Assembly (NCBI RefSeq): GCF_018861145.1
Contig: NZ_JAHKQT010000004.1
Coordinates: 124,001 to 188,000, forward strand
DNA length: 64,000 nucleotides
Source: Poseidonibacter lekithochrous
Lineage (GTDB): Bacteria; Campylobacterota; Campylobacteria; Campylobacterales; Arcobacteraceae
Direction: 5' to 3'
Shown: positions 27,581-33,882 of the stretch, piece by piece
How positions within the stretch are numbered: position 1 is the first letter of the stretch
Layout: each line of letters begins with the position of its first letter
Notes under the pieces: model-generated
Databases searched by the model: none
What the model was told of the DNA's origin: nothing
Seen by the model: the letters and a program-made list of their open reading frames with translations, nothing else
Translations under genes and position numbers: made by a program

Positions 27581-28312
27581 ATGTATGATTTAGCTGCTTT
27601 TGGAATTATAACTGGTTTTATATCAGGCTTTTTTGGAGTTGGTGGAGGTATGATTTTAGTACCAATGCTTTTACTCTCTGGCTTTGTAATGAAAGAAGCA
27701 GTTGCTATTTCTATTATGCAAATGGTATTTTCATCAATATATGGTTCATTTCTAAACTCAAAAAAAGCTACTAATGTTATAAAAGACGGAATTATGCTTG
27801 GTATTGGTGGTTTTGTAGGAGGTCTACAAAGTGGATATATTGTAACAAATGTATCTAATGAATTCTTACAATATCTATTTATATTAATTTTATTTTATTC
27901 AATTATAAAAATATTTATAACACCTGCGGAACATGATTGTGATCAAAGATCAAAAAATAAACTTACTTTATTTATTATAGGTTTTTTTACAGGACTTATA
28001 GCTATGAGTATTGGAGTTGGTGGTTCAGTAATATTAATACCTATTTTAATAGGATTTTTAAAGTATGACTTAAAAGCAGCCACTGCTCTTAGTCTATTTT
28101 TTGTAATTTTTTCATCAATTGCAGGATTTACTTCTTTATCCTTAAGTGGTCATATGCTTTATACAGAAGGTACTATTATTGGCGTTTTTTCTTTAATTGG
28201 TGTTTATTTTGGAATTATTGTTAAACATAAAGTTCATTCGAACTCTTATAAAAAATATATATTAGTTTTAAATGCTATTATTTTAGTAACTATGATTTAT
28301 AAAACATTTTAA
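27581..28312 (+). CDS. TSUP-family (TauE/SafE) membrane transporter
   Basis: A membrane protein of about eight segments with the two-fold repeat of the TauE/SafE family: ITGFISGFFGVGGGMILVPML in the first half and FTGLIAMSIGVGGSVILIPIL in the second. Members export or import sulfite, sulfoacetate and other organic anions. Lying 5 bases after cysE suggests a sulfur compound, but the substrate is inference. The 243-residue length is normal. A strong terminator follows 64 bases later, ending the operon. Confidence 0.9.
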   Translation: MYDLAAFGIITGFISGFFGVGGGMILVPMLLLSGFVMKEAVAISIMQMVFSSIYGSFLNSKKATNVIKDGIMLGIGGFVGGLQSGYIVTNVSNEFLQYLFILILFYSIIKIFITPAEHDCDQRSKNKLTLFIIGFFTGLIAMSIGVGGSVILIPILIGFLKYDLKAATALSLFFVIFSSIAGFTSLSLSGHMLYTEGTIIGVFSLIGVYFGIIVKHKVHSNSYKKYILVLNAIILVTMIYKTF

Positions 28313-28435: not shown

Positions 28436-30880
28436 TTAATTTAAATTATCTTTTAGTAAATACTCTAAAAGTCCACCGTTTTTATAATACTCTATTTCTA
28501 TATTTGTGTCTAATCTAGATTGTAGGGTAAGTACCCTACTTTGATTGTTTTTAAAAATTTCTATATCTATTTTATCATTTATTTTTAATCTATTAGTTTT
28601 TATATTTATAAGCTCGTCACCTTTTAATTTTAAAGATTCAATATCATCATCAATAAATTCTAAAGGTAAAATTCCAACTCTTAAAAGATCTTTTTTATAC
28701 TCTTTAGAAAAAGATTTAGCAATAATTACTTCAATACCTAAAAGTTTTAATCCTTTTACCGCCCAATCATTAATCTCACCTATTCCAAATCTACTTCCAG
28801 CAAAAATCACTAAAGGAGTTTTATTCTCTTTTATCTTTAATGAAAAGTCATATATTGACATAATTTCACTACTTTGGAAATCCTTTGTATATCCACCCTC
28901 TTTTGGACTTACTATCTTATTTTTTAGTTTATTATTTGATAAGATTGATTTTATAATTACAAATGAACTAGCATATCTATTTTCAAAAGTATCAAACTCA
29001 TCAGGTCTTAAACCTTTTGATTGAAGAAATAAAGCAGTTGGAGAGTAAGAAGGTATTTTACCTTTTGGTGAGATATCTTCACTTGTAATATTATCACCTA
29101 AAAGTGCTAATATTCTTGCATTTTTAATATCAATATCATCTCTATTCTTTTTATTAAAAATATCTGTTTTACAAATATATGTAGAGGTTTCATCCCAAGT
29201 GTAGTTTTCATCTTTTTCATATGCTAAATCTTGCCAATAACTATTTCCTACAAAAATATTTTTATATAAATCTTTATAAACTGAATAATCAAGCTTTTCT
29301 AAGTATTCATTTACTTCAATCATACTTGGCCAAATATCACTTAAGTAAATATCTTGAATAATACTCTCTTTTGTAATATCAAAATCTAAATTACCTTTTA
29401 AACAATAAGCAATTAATAATGCAGGTGAAAATATCCACTTAGATTTTGTAAATCTATTTTTTTTGATTTTCTCAATATCATTTGAATAAGAAATACATGA
29501 TACATTTAGATTAAATTTCTCAATATCTAAAGAAACACTTTCACTTAAAGACATATCTTTTTTTTCTCTTAAAATAAAACCTAATTGTTCTAAATACTTA
29601 TATAAATCTAGTTTTTCTAAAAACTGCTTTTGTACTTGCGAATCAAAAGTTATAAACCTAGAAATATTTTTATTTATACTAATTCCTAAATCACATGCAT
29701 TTTTTGCAACTAAGGAAGCTTGTATTAGTAAAGAAGGATTTGTTGTATTTGAACAAATTTCAATAAAAGCTAAAACAATATCATTATCTTTAACAAAATT
29801 TCCTTTTTTAAAAGTTTTTAATTTACTAGTAATTTCTTTTACTAAGAAATCTTCTTCAAGTGTTTTTAAAGCGATTCCCATAGGCTTAACTTTTGATAAG
29901 TCTAACTCTAAATTTTCTTCATATTGAGCATGATCATCTAATAAATATAATGCTTGTTTTTCATAATAGTTTTTTATAAGTGAAGCATCAACACCTCTTG
30001 TTTGTTCAATAAAGAAGATTGTATTAGCATCAATGGGAAAATATCCACAAACTCCCTTATACTGTGAAACAAGTTTTGATAATATTGTTCTATCTTCTAA
30101 TGATATATTTTTTAAACCTTCTCCATAAAATTCAATAATCTTTCCGTTTATAGTATTCTCTTTAAATATGTTTTTTAAACTTAAATGAACATCATTAAAG
30201 CTTGTACCTTGTCCTAGCGAGCCTTTAACTTTTATACCAATAACTTTAGGAAGATCAAAAGTAATCGAAGAATTTAACATAACAGATTGTATTTCAAGTC
30301 TTCCAACGTTTAAAGAAAGAACACCTAAAGAATTAAGCATTGAACTATGTAAATCTGTGCCAATTATTGCTTCTGGAAGAACTACAACCTTATCATTTTT
30401 CATTTTCATTGAAAGCATAGTTGATAGGTATTCTAAATTTACTTGATTTAAGAGATTACTATTTGGAGGAATTATAGATATATTTTCAAAAGTATTTCCT
30501 ACATATTTTAAAAAAGTATATCTTTCTTTATTTTTTTGTTCATTTTCATCAATATTATCAACTACAATATCAACCATCATTTTAGGATTTACATTTTTAC
30601 TTGCAGAAATAAAATCAACTAAAGTAGGGACGGCATTGAATTCATTCATAATGATTCTATTTGCAAAAAACTTTATTTGCTTTAAATGATTTCTATTAAC
30701 AAAAATGTTTATAATCTCTTCAACATCATTTTCATCAGCATTTCTAATATTTGTTTCTAATAATATCTTTAGTGAATATGGAAGTTTTTTTAGTTTCGAA
30801 GAATATTCAAAAACTTTTTTTAAGTCACAATAATAATATTTTTTTTCATTAAATTCAAAACTATTTAAAAATCTATTCAA
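28436..30880 (-). CDS. Aconitase-family protein with degenerate active site
   Basis: The whole chain follows the AcnA/IRP1 layout: IIPPNSNLLNQVNLEYLS, GTDLHSSMLNSLGVLSLNVG, IIEFYGEGLKNISLEDRT, CGYFPID, C376-S-N-T-T-N-P, LGDNITSEDISPKG, EGGYTKDF and GSRFGIGEINDWAVKG. Yet the catalytic parts are changed. Of the three cluster cysteines only C376 remains; the GYGCxTCIGNSG motif reads G434-F-I-L437-R-E-K440-K. The GSSRDW substrate motif reads G701-E-I-N-D-W. Homologs have about 890 residues against 814 here. It cannot be an ordinary aconitase. A structural, RNA-binding (IRP-like) or other role is possible but unproven. The frame is intact. It is a single gene, convergent with the TSUP gene. Confidence 0.85.
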   Translation of the reverse strand: MNRFLNSFEFNEKKYYYCDLKKVFEYSSKLKKLPYSLKILLETNIRNADENDVEEIINIFVNRNHLKQIKFFANRIIMNEFNAVPTLVDFISASKNVNPKMMVDIVVDNIDENEQKNKERYTFLKYVGNTFENISIIPPNSNLLNQVNLEYLSTMLSMKMKNDKVVVLPEAIIGTDLHSSMLNSLGVLSLNVGRLEIQSVMLNSSITFDLPKVIGIKVKGSLGQGTSFNDVHLSLKNIFKENTINGKIIEFYGEGLKNISLEDRTILSKLVSQYKGVCGYFPIDANTIFFIEQTRGVDASLIKNYYEKQALYLLDDHAQYEENLELDLSKVKPMGIALKTLEEDFLVKEITSKLKTFKKGNFVKDNDIVLAFIEICSNTTNPSLLIQASLVAKNACDLGISINKNISRFITFDSQVQKQFLEKLDLYKYLEQLGFILREKKDMSLSESVSLDIEKFNLNVSCISYSNDIEKIKKNRFTKSKWIFSPALLIAYCLKGNLDFDITKESIIQDIYLSDIWPSMIEVNEYLEKLDYSVYKDLYKNIFVGNSYWQDLAYEKDENYTWDETSTYICKTDIFNKKNRDDIDIKNARILALLGDNITSEDISPKGKIPSYSPTALFLQSKGLRPDEFDTFENRYASSFVIIKSILSNNKLKNKIVSPKEGGYTKDFQSSEIMSIYDFSLKIKENKTPLVIFAGSRFGIGEINDWAVKGLKLLGIEVIIAKSFSKEYKKDLLRVGILPLEFIDDDIESLKLKGDELINIKTNRLKINDKIDIEIFKNNQSRVLTLQSRLDTNIEIEYYKNGGLLEYLLKDNLN

Positions 30881-31071: not shown

Positions 31072-33882
31072 ATGACTGATACTATAAAGATTTTTAACGC
31101 TAAAGAGAACAACTTAAAAAATATTAATTTAGAAATACCAAAAAATAAACTAATCGTATTTACAGGACTATCAGGTTCTGGGAAATCTACTCTTGCATTT
31201 GATACACTTTATGCAGAAGGACAAAGAAGATATATTGAATCTTTATCTGCTTATGCTAGACAATTCTTAGATAAAGTAGGAAAACCTGATGTTGAAAGAA
31301 TTGAAGGATTAACACCTGCAATTGCAATTGACCAAAAAACAACTTCAAAAAATCCACGTTCAACTGTTGGAACAATTACTGAAGTTTATGACTACTTAAG
31401 ACTTTTATATGCAAGAATTGGAAAACAACACTGTCACAAATGTGGTAAGCCAATTTCTCAAATGAGTGCATCTGATGTAATTTCACAAGTTTTAACACTT
31501 CCAGAAAACTCAAAAATTGTAATCCTTGCCCCACTAATTAATAGAAAAAAAGGTACTTTTGCTGATTTACTTGAATCTTTAAGAGGTAAAGGTTATGTAA
31601 GAGCTATGATTGATGGAGTTATGATAAGACTTGATGAAGAAATAGAACTTGGTAAATCAAAAATGCATACAATAAAAGTAGTAATTGATAGAGTTGTAGT
31701 AAAAGAAGAAAATAAAGAAAGAATTGCACAAGATGTTGAAAAAGGTTTAAAAGAGAGTTTTGGGGAACTTGAGATTGAAGTATTAAATCACGAAGACGTC
31801 GGAGTTGAAAAGCATATTCATTATTCTGAGCATATGGCATGTTTTGATTGTAAAATCTCATTTGAACCTTTAGAACCTTTATCTTTTTCTTTTAACTCAC
31901 CAAAAGGTGCTTGTAGTTCTTGTGATGGTTTAGGTATTAGATATGCGCTTGATATGAAAAAAGTGATAAACGAAGAACTTCCAATTGAAGAAGGTGCTGT
32001 AAGAGTAATCTATGGTTTTAACAAAGGATTTTATTTTAAAATGCTTACTGCTTTTTGTGAAGCAGCTAATATTGATATGACCATTCCATTTAAAGAGTTA
32101 GAAGAATACCAAAGAAAAGCAATTTTACATGGTGGTATTGAAGAAGCAAAATTTGTATGGAAAAAACATACTCTTAAGAGAAAATGGGAAGGTGTTGTAA
32201 AAATTGCTTATGACATGGTAAAAGATGAAAAAGAGATGGCTGAATACATGACTGAAAAAGCCTGTGATGATTGTAATGGAAATAGATTAAAACCTTCATC
32301 TCAAAATGTTTATGTTGCAGGTAAAACAATAGGAGATATTTTAAATATTCCAATTGAAGATTCTCATAAATTTTTTCAAGATGATGAAAACTTTAAATAT
32401 TTATCAGAGCAAAGTAAATTAATTGCAAAACCTATATTAAAAGAAGTTCAAGAAAGAGTCTATTTTTTATATGATGTAGGACTTGGATATATTACATTAG
32501 GTCGAGATGCGAGAACAATTTCTGGAGGTGAGGCTCAAAGAATTAGAGTTGCCTCACAAATTGGTTCTGGACTTACTGGTGTTATGTATGTTTTAGATGA
32601 ACCTTCAATTGGCTTACATGAAAGAGATACTAACAAGCTTATTAAAACACTTCGTGCCTTACAAGAAAAAGGAAATACTGTAATTGTAGTTGAGCACGAT
32701 AAAGAAACTATTGAAGCCGCTGATTATATTGTAGATATTGGTCCCTTTGCAGGAAAATTTGGTGGAGAGATTGTATTTGATGGAACATTAAAACAAATGT
32801 TAAAAGCTAAAACTTTAACTGCAAAATACCTAACTGGTGAAAAACAAATTTCTTATATTCACAATAGACCTCAAGAAGATTTTATAAAAATCAAAAATGT
32901 AACTATTAATAATATAAAAGATTTAAGTCTTCAAATACCTCTTAAAAATTTATGTGCAATAACCGGTGTTTCAGGAAGTGGTAAATCATCACTTATTTTA
33001 CAAACACTATTACCTGTTGCAAAAGAGTTGTTAAACCATGCAAGAAAAGTTAAAAAAGTTGATGGTGTTGAAATAGAAGGTTTAGAAAAATTAGATAAAG
33101 TAATTTATCTTGATCAAAGTCCAATAGGAAGAACTCCACGTTCAAACCCAGCAACATACACAGGTTTAATGGATGAATTAAGGCTATTATTCTCTAAAAC
33201 AAAAGAAGCAGAAATTAGAGGTTATAAAATTGGACGTTTTTCTTTTAATGTAAAAGGTGGAAGATGTGAAAAATGTCAAGGTGAAGGTGAAATTAAAATA
33301 GAAATGCACTTCTTGCCAGATATTATGGTTAAATGTGATGATTGTCTAGGTCAAAGATATAATGCACAAACTTTAGAAATTTTATACAAAGGGAAAAGTA
33401 TCTCTGATGTTTTAAATATGAGTGTAGATGAAGCTGTTGAATTCTTTGTAAAAATTCCAAAGATTCATGCAAAACTTCAAACATTAAGTGATGTTGGTCT
33501 TGGATATATTACTTTAGGACAAAATGCTGTTACTCTTTCAGGTGGTGAAGCACAAAGAATCAAACTAAGTAAAGAATTAAGTAAAAAAGATACAGGAAAC
33601 ACTTTATATATTTTAGATGAACCAACAACTGGACTTCATTTTGCTGATGTTGATAGACTTACAAAAGTATTACACCATCTTGTTGATTTAGGGAATTCTG
33701 TTATTGTTATTGAACATAATTTAGATGTTGTTAAAAACTCTGACTGGGTAATAGATATGGGTCCAGAAGGTGGAAATAAAGGTGGTTTATTAGTTGATGA
33801 AGGAACACCTGAACAAGTTGCTGCAAATCATAAAAAATCTGGTTCACATACTGGATATTATTTAGCAAAAGAAATAAAATAA
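31072..33882 (+). CDS. uvrA: Excinuclease ABC subunit UvrA
   Basis: Damage-recognition ATPase of nucleotide excision repair. Two ABC modules: Walker A GLSGSGKSTLAFDTL (about 32-46) and GVSGSGKSSLILQTL (about 635-649), and signatures TISGGEAQRIRVA and TLSGGEAQRIKLS. Zinc fingers are visible as CHKCGKP with the CFDC and CSSC pairs, and CEKCQGEGEI with CDDCLGQRY. The 936-residue length is normal. It stands under its own promoter and is directly followed by a DUF309 gene (TAA-ATG with no gap). Confidence 0.98.
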   Translation: MTDTIKIFNAKENNLKNINLEIPKNKLIVFTGLSGSGKSTLAFDTLYAEGQRRYIESLSAYARQFLDKVGKPDVERIEGLTPAIAIDQKTTSKNPRSTVGTITEVYDYLRLLYARIGKQHCHKCGKPISQMSASDVISQVLTLPENSKIVILAPLINRKKGTFADLLESLRGKGYVRAMIDGVMIRLDEEIELGKSKMHTIKVVIDRVVVKEENKERIAQDVEKGLKESFGELEIEVLNHEDVGVEKHIHYSEHMACFDCKISFEPLEPLSFSFNSPKGACSSCDGLGIRYALDMKKVINEELPIEEGAVRVIYGFNKGFYFKMLTAFCEAANIDMTIPFKELEEYQRKAILHGGIEEAKFVWKKHTLKRKWEGVVKIAYDMVKDEKEMAEYMTEKACDDCNGNRLKPSSQNVYVAGKTIGDILNIPIEDSHKFFQDDENFKYLSEQSKLIAKPILKEVQERVYFLYDVGLGYITLGRDARTISGGEAQRIRVASQIGSGLTGVMYVLDEPSIGLHERDTNKLIKTLRALQEKGNTVIVVEHDKETIEAADYIVDIGPFAGKFGGEIVFDGTLKQMLKAKTLTAKYLTGEKQISYIHNRPQEDFIKIKNVTINNIKDLSLQIPLKNLCAITGVSGSGKSSLILQTLLPVAKELLNHARKVKKVDGVEIEGLEKLDKVIYLDQSPIGRTPRSNPATYTGLMDELRLLFSKTKEAEIRGYKIGRFSFNVKGGRCEKCQGEGEIKIEMHFLPDIMVKCDDCLGQRYNAQTLEILYKGKSISDVLNMSVDEAVEFFVKIPKIHAKLQTLSDVGLGYITLGQNAVTLSGGEAQRIKLSKELSKKDTGNTLYILDEPTTGLHFADVDRLTKVLHHLVDLGNSVIVIEHNLDVVKNSDWVIDMGPEGGNKGGLLVDEGTPEQVAANHKKSGSHTGYYLAKEIK

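Follow-up and report, generated by a model that had tools for sequence, protein, structure and literature searches.

A probable AcnA-derived pseudo-aconitase of the Arcobacteraceae and its retention under purifying selection

The gene considered here, referred to as gene X, lies in a window of 64,000 nucleotides from Poseidonibacter lekithochrous (the window being the whole stretch of DNA that was analysed) and is best read as an ancient AcnA-derived pseudoenzyme of Arcobacteraceae. Its full-length frame has been under purifying selection after its catalytic residues were lost, and it is very likely that the gene is both non-catalytic and retained by selection. As to the role for which it is kept, the overall reading preferred here, to which we would give a probability of roughly 0.5, is that gene X is an ancient pseudo-aconitase serving a non-catalytic function, namely that of a regulator which stays permanently apo and binds macromolecules. 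Animals are already known to have a dead AcnA paralogue that binds RNA (IRP2); what is new is the bacterial X clade. A search of the literature, with most subscription papers falling outside its scope, found no paper that names this paralogue; that a family already described might name it was an outcome that the sequence-only reading of this DNA had considered.

Family assignment

The reading frame opens with TTG, contains zero internal stops and encodes 814 aa (Table 1); chance or sequencing error can be excluded as its origin because 31 other orthologues also have open frames. Both Pfam aconitase domains are present above their gathering scores and in the order seen in AcnA, namely Aconitase (PF00330; 1.9e-61, 208.9 bits against a cut-off of 28.7) and Aconitase_C (PF00694; 2.1e-19, 70.6 bits against 22.8), which places protein X in the aconitase superfamily and, together with an end-to-end alignment to the AcnA models, bears out its initial description as a full-length aconitase homologue. 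Yet it scores under every curated AcnA cut-off (595 bits against 945 for TIGR01341, 608 against 686 for NF006757 and 564 against 905 for NF009520). Nor is it an AcnD, reaching 333 bits on a model (TIGR02333) whose cut-off is 1420. Escherichia coli YbhJ and aconitase X are, like gene X, divergent members of the superfamily, but protein X scores 53.4 bits against the YbhJ cut-off of 641 (NF008503) and gives no aconitase X match. The closest sequences having a solved structure are IRP1 and IRP2. Judged by these comparisons of sequence, protein X is AcnA-derived.

Table 1 Features of gene X and its surroundings in the window (residue numbers are those of the window protein).
Feature	Position	Strand	Basis or remarks
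Gene X (probable pseudo-aconitase)	28436..30880	(-)	AcnA-type protein of 814 aa with four aconitase domains that has lost catalytic and Fe-S residues
Promoter-like element TTAATTATTAAAGGAAATTTAGATACTTTTTAATTAA	30904..30940	(-)	24-60 nt upstream of X; similar element at similar distance in many orthologues
C376 (CSNTTNP), sole cluster cysteine left	29753..29755	(-)	Alignment; equivalent to mitochondrial aconitase C358
Site of deleted YGCTTCIGNSG loop (residues 437-443)	29552..29572	(-)	Alignment; in canonical AcnA this loop bears the second and third cluster cysteines
GEINDW (701-706)	28763..28780	(-)	Alignment; replaces GSSRDW substrate and catalytic-serine motif
Region equivalent to aconitase domain 3, the Fe-S cluster domain (residues 335-540)	29261..29878	(-)	Deleted in frame in the G065 and G067 orthologues
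KEGGYTKDF (660-668), domain-4 motif whose conservation is new to the clade	28877..28903	(-)	K660 and D667 invariant; motif not conserved in canonical AcnA
uvrA, right-hand anchor, divergent from X	31072..33882	(+)	Similarity
TauE/SafE-like exporter, left-hand anchor, convergent with X	27581..28312	(+)	Similarity

Loss of active-site and cluster residues

An alignment to canonical AcnA and AcnD shows that the window protein retains 7 of 23 active-site residues, a loss that not only agrees with but exceeds the earlier impression of many replaced catalytic positions. The further positions replaced are Q72, H101, H147, S166, N258, E262, R447, R452, D568, H569, R580, S642, S643 and R644, of which R580 is a weak marker of loss, since K occupies this position in AcnD and in Bacillus AcnA too. 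An AcnA equivalog requires S642, which we take to be the catalytic base, and the substrate arginines R447, R452 and R644; in the window protein these are replaced by E702, D468, K473 and N704, respectively. It likewise requires three [4Fe-4S] cysteines, of which one is left. The survival of C376 alone and the presence of GEINDW in place of GSSRDW had both been read correctly from the sequence, while the assignment of the lost cysteine pair to L437 and K440 is not upheld: the YGCTTCIGNSG loop has lost about 7 residues, and the cysteine positions align to D442 and to a gap. An alternative alignment that would recover the canonical cysteines was rejected on these same grounds, since the loop is deleted and C376 alone aligns.

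Other aconitases in the genome

Three further aconitase-family loci occur in the genome, encoding an AcnD, an AcnB-type protein (857 aa, identified by sequence) and a LeuC-sized protein; this genome has no canonical AcnA. Its closest named relative within the genus is Poseidonibacter ostreae. These findings answer the question, left by the sequence-only reading, of whether a second acnA or acnB exists, and the idea that X itself might be the TCA aconitase was rejected in view of AcnB and AcnD being present elsewhere. The AcnD scores 1483 bits, over the TIGR02333 cut-off of 1420, and adjoins genes that, going by their sequences, are presumably PrpF-, PrpC- and PrpB-like. This Fe/S-dependent 2-methylisocitrate dehydratase belongs to the same superfamily as X (28-31% identity) but differs in having all three cysteines, in lying among prp-type genes and in forming a separate clade.

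Canonical AcnA was found only once in the family and phylum samples (104 and 298 genomes), in genome G033 (locus L043, contig C5, 1227-10053). That protein has 882 aa, scores over the AcnA cut-offs and carries all three cysteines, and its gene immediately follows nifH and two genes for nitrogenase component 1 and precedes TOBE-domain and molybdate-binding-type genes.

Distribution and locus

Among 104 Arcobacteraceae genomes, essentially full-length members of the X clade number 32, that of the window included (783-862 aa), and are spread over 8 of 20 genera; about two thirds of the genomes lack the gene. In a maximum-likelihood tree a single branch with support 100/100 sets all 32 off from both AcnA and AcnD. 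The search for orthologues in Campylobacterota that had been proposed thus found them in Arcobacteraceae only, given that a scan of 298 genomes of the phylum, made using the canonical AcnA of G033 as query, gave X matches confined to this family (and AcnD-like proteins in one other). Candidate relatives on plasmids and phages were rejected, as they were ordinary AcnA/AcnD-level matches of about 31%.

In all genomes whose context was examined, X is placed between a hisS-speA-cysE-tauE block (hisS, speA and cysE standing in that order to the left of the tauE anchor) and uvrA, with variable insertions in some; in the window the two anchors are genes that we take, from similarity, to encode a TauE/SafE-like exporter and UvrA. 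In two genomes without X (G058 and G097) tauE and uvrA are directly adjacent, and in a third (G017) another gene lies between them. No fused partner of X, and no conserved neighbour beyond the flanking anchors, was found in the examined loci, and the proposal of a partner gene was rejected, the genes between tauE and uvrA varying by genome (a catalase with an ankyrin protein, helicases, sensor proteins).

The tauE-uvrA interval itself looks like an insertion hotspot: in loci L113-L120 the genes that it holds vary between genomes (a DEAD-box-like helicase, sensor proteins, a transposase-like gene, a catalase). A pair consisting of a catalase and an ankyrin-repeat gene stands beside X in two relatives (L119, 5216-7128, and L118, 8533-10450; Pfam check in L119 only).

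Piecemeal loss and new conservation across the clade

Retention of active-site residues among the 32 members runs from 18/23 (G061) down to 4/23, with a median of 8/23. As S642 is kept in 1/32, H569 in 2/32 and R452 in 4/32, catalysis was probably lost early. The cluster cysteines, to judge from Dollo counts of their losses on the tree (8 for C358, 6 for C421 and 4 for C424), seem to have been lost after catalysis, and repeatedly, at least 4-8 times each; the cysteine equivalent to C376 is gone in 12/32 members. Residues invariant in canonical aconitases are retained in the clade at a rate of 0.44 in active-site columns versus 0.61 elsewhere (p=0.006), and there are new clade invariants, namely N44, F60, E170, E262, K660, D667 and E672.

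It is conceivable that the aconitase pocket has been turned, without an Fe-S cluster, to use as a new enzyme or a small-molecule sensor, as might be suggested by the equivalents of D100, D165 and S571, which are mostly retained (28/32, 26/32 and 25/32), and by R635, which is invariant. However, the clade has no shared replacement active site, the substitutions at most active-site positions differing from member to member, and conservation is lower in the pocket columns than elsewhere, so that a pocket-based function of this kind appears very improbable.

Selection versus decay

Measured against its three nearest relatives, all of which are without the same cluster cysteines and S642, the window gene has dN/dS values of 0.164 (bootstrap 0.127-0.209), 0.188 and 0.217, with upper limits of 0.21-0.27. 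Other close X pairs give 0.055-0.18, and the clade overall about 0.05-0.22. Values for neighbouring genes are 0.03-0.095, X being about four times higher but far under 1, and those for AcnD pairs are 0.105-0.149, X lying not far from these. In a neutral simulation run at half the observed synonymous divergence the frame stayed open in 0 of 2000 runs. Given a dN/dS far below 1 and the failure of any open frame to survive in the simulation, X must be regarded as under constraint, some fourfold weaker than that on its neighbours. The marks of a pseudogene (a dN/dS near 1 and a broken frame) are absent from the window gene and are seen in two copies elsewhere: that of G098, with a frameshift and C-terminal truncation, and that of G090, a remnant comprising residues 535-809 only. 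(A further copy, in G089, runs into a contig end.) In G065 and G067 the frames are open but are without residues ~335-540, domain 3, and their mutual dN/dS is about 0.5, i.e. these copies are in decay or under strong relaxation. The open X frames L044 4347-6215 and L046 3859-5874, from two Arcobacteraceae, are without domain 3, which was cut out at closely matching boundaries.

The sequence-only reading had offered selection for another job and slow decay of a paralogue as alternatives. In its fuller form decay would mean that AcnB (with AcnD) took over from a redundant acnA, whose catalytic site then drifted and which was lost lineage by lineage, and this would accommodate the patchy presence of X across the family, the broken copies, the in-frame losses of domain 3 with the higher dN/dS that accompanies them, and the excess of dN/dS over that of the neighbours. 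It is hard to reconcile with 32 open frames in 8 genera at deep divergence, with a dN/dS far under 1 between members none of which is catalytically competent, with invariant residues new to the clade, or with the fact that a neutrally evolving frame would not remain open. Decay, though a serious rival, is therefore unlikely as a general account: on its own it is refuted for most lineages, while being visible in G098 and G090 and, as relaxation, in G065 and G067. The proposed dN/dS test accordingly came out in favour of purifying selection (0.16-0.22 for the window gene), broken copies being found in G098 and G090, and selection for another job gains support from the single clade, the conserved locus, the dN/dS of 0.05-0.22 after loss of the catalytic residues, and the canonical AcnB and AcnD encoded at other loci.

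Predicted conformation

An AlphaFold model of the window protein (pLDDT 87, pTM 0.87) superposes better on the open, IRE-bound form of IRP1 (3snp/3sn2; TM 0.81) than on closed c-aconitase (2b3x; TM 0.68), whereas a control model of the canonical AcnA of G033 (pLDDT 82) behaves in the opposite way (TM 0.90 closed, 0.65 open). The X model is a single prediction made from 32 sequences and the control alignment is dominated by canonical proteins, both alignments being shallow, so that an open, apo-IRP1-like conformation, which is what the structure prediction proposed earlier has yielded, is to be treated as a lead.

Possible function

If the preferred reading is correct, X, lacking a cluster (a few relatives would have a dispensable one), would adopt the open conformation that IRP1 takes only on losing its cluster, with domain 4 swung out, and would then act as a permanently 'apo' macromolecule-binding regulator whose most likely partner is RNA, bound through a contact surface of its own and not the IRP1-IRE surface. 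X fits the permanently apo half of the IRP1 switch, and IRP1 itself binds RNA constitutively once any one of its cluster cysteines is mutated (PMC7181819). Action through RNA is the likeliest single mechanism, albeit with rather less than an even chance of being right. A fuller version, in which an AcnA lineage gave up catalysis and later, several times in parallel, its Fe-S cluster, to become a permanently apo RNA-binding regulator and so a bacterial counterpart of IRP2, is put forward a little more tentatively still.

The comparison with known RNA-binding aconitases cuts both ways. To the IRE-contact positions used for it we added R699 and R712, which we take to belong with the others. Most of the resulting set (R269, S371, K379, T438, N439, R536, R541, S681, P682, R699, R712, R713, R780, D781 and W782) comes from published work (PMC4184891, PMC7181819). 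In the window protein 6/15 of these positions match E. coli AcnA, which does not place it among the IRPs; the equivalents of S371, K379, R536, R541, R713 and R780 are lost. A basic-charge signature of nucleic-acid binding was looked for in protein X and not found (pI 5.9, versus 5.2 for the AcnD of the same genome), and domain 3, which provides part of the RNA contacts of IRP1, is absent from the G065 and G067 orthologues. An IRP1-like mode of RNA binding is disfavoured because most IRE contacts are lost, the charge is unshifted and domain 3 is missing in these two genomes. The earlier suggestion of an RNA-binding or regulatory role is thus helped by the predicted open form and weakened by the contacts, the charge and the domain-3 losses, and keeps its conjectural standing.

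Scaffolding or protein binding is a common fate of pseudoenzymes, and X might, without RNA, bind and modulate AcnB, AcnD or some other metabolic enzyme. The newly conserved residues of the clade, the non-basic character of the protein and the tolerance of domain-3 loss would all suit such a role, but there is neither a conserved neighbour besides the flanking anchors nor a fused partner, and we consider it, though a serious rival, improbable.

Bacterial AcnA (TIGR01341/PRK09277) shares with X the four-domain architecture, the fold and the end-to-end alignment, and its apo form binds mRNA in several bacteria; that of M. tuberculosis, for instance, binds an IRE-like element in cwlM mRNA and down-regulates cwlM (PMC7527780). 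X differs in lacking the cluster ligands and the catalytic serine and arginines, in scoring below the AcnA cut-offs, and in that, should it bind no cluster, a holo-apo switch is not open to it. The lack of a cluster switch also separates it from IRP1. Mammalian IRP2 is likewise an AcnA-type paralogue without aconitase activity (PMC4056636; for X the lack of activity is predicted), kept beside functional aconitases, but IRP2 binds IREs whereas X has lost most of the IRE-contact residues; X is bacterial and presumably of independent origin.

The regulatory role of bacterial aconitases is difficult to disentangle from their work as a central enzyme, as has been noted for the essential AcnA of M. 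tuberculosis (PMC7527780). X would represent an evolutionary split of regulator from enzyme, being a catalytically dead and dispensable AcnA that coexists with AcnB and AcnD, and the graded series within the clade (18/23 to 4/23 active-site residues, and two copies without domain 3) offers a set of natural mutants for mapping function. Should the RNA-regulator reading be true, the moonlighting function of AcnA would here be separated from the enzyme.

Upstream element and expression

The element upstream of X is partly conserved: a motif model built from one half of the clade gives p<0.05 in 7/15 of the other half. No second copy occurs in this genome at one mismatch, and a regulon sharing the motif was rejected on these two counts, the same observations indicating that the element is probably just the promoter of X. 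A TTG start is found in 25/32 members, which suggests that expression of X may be low.
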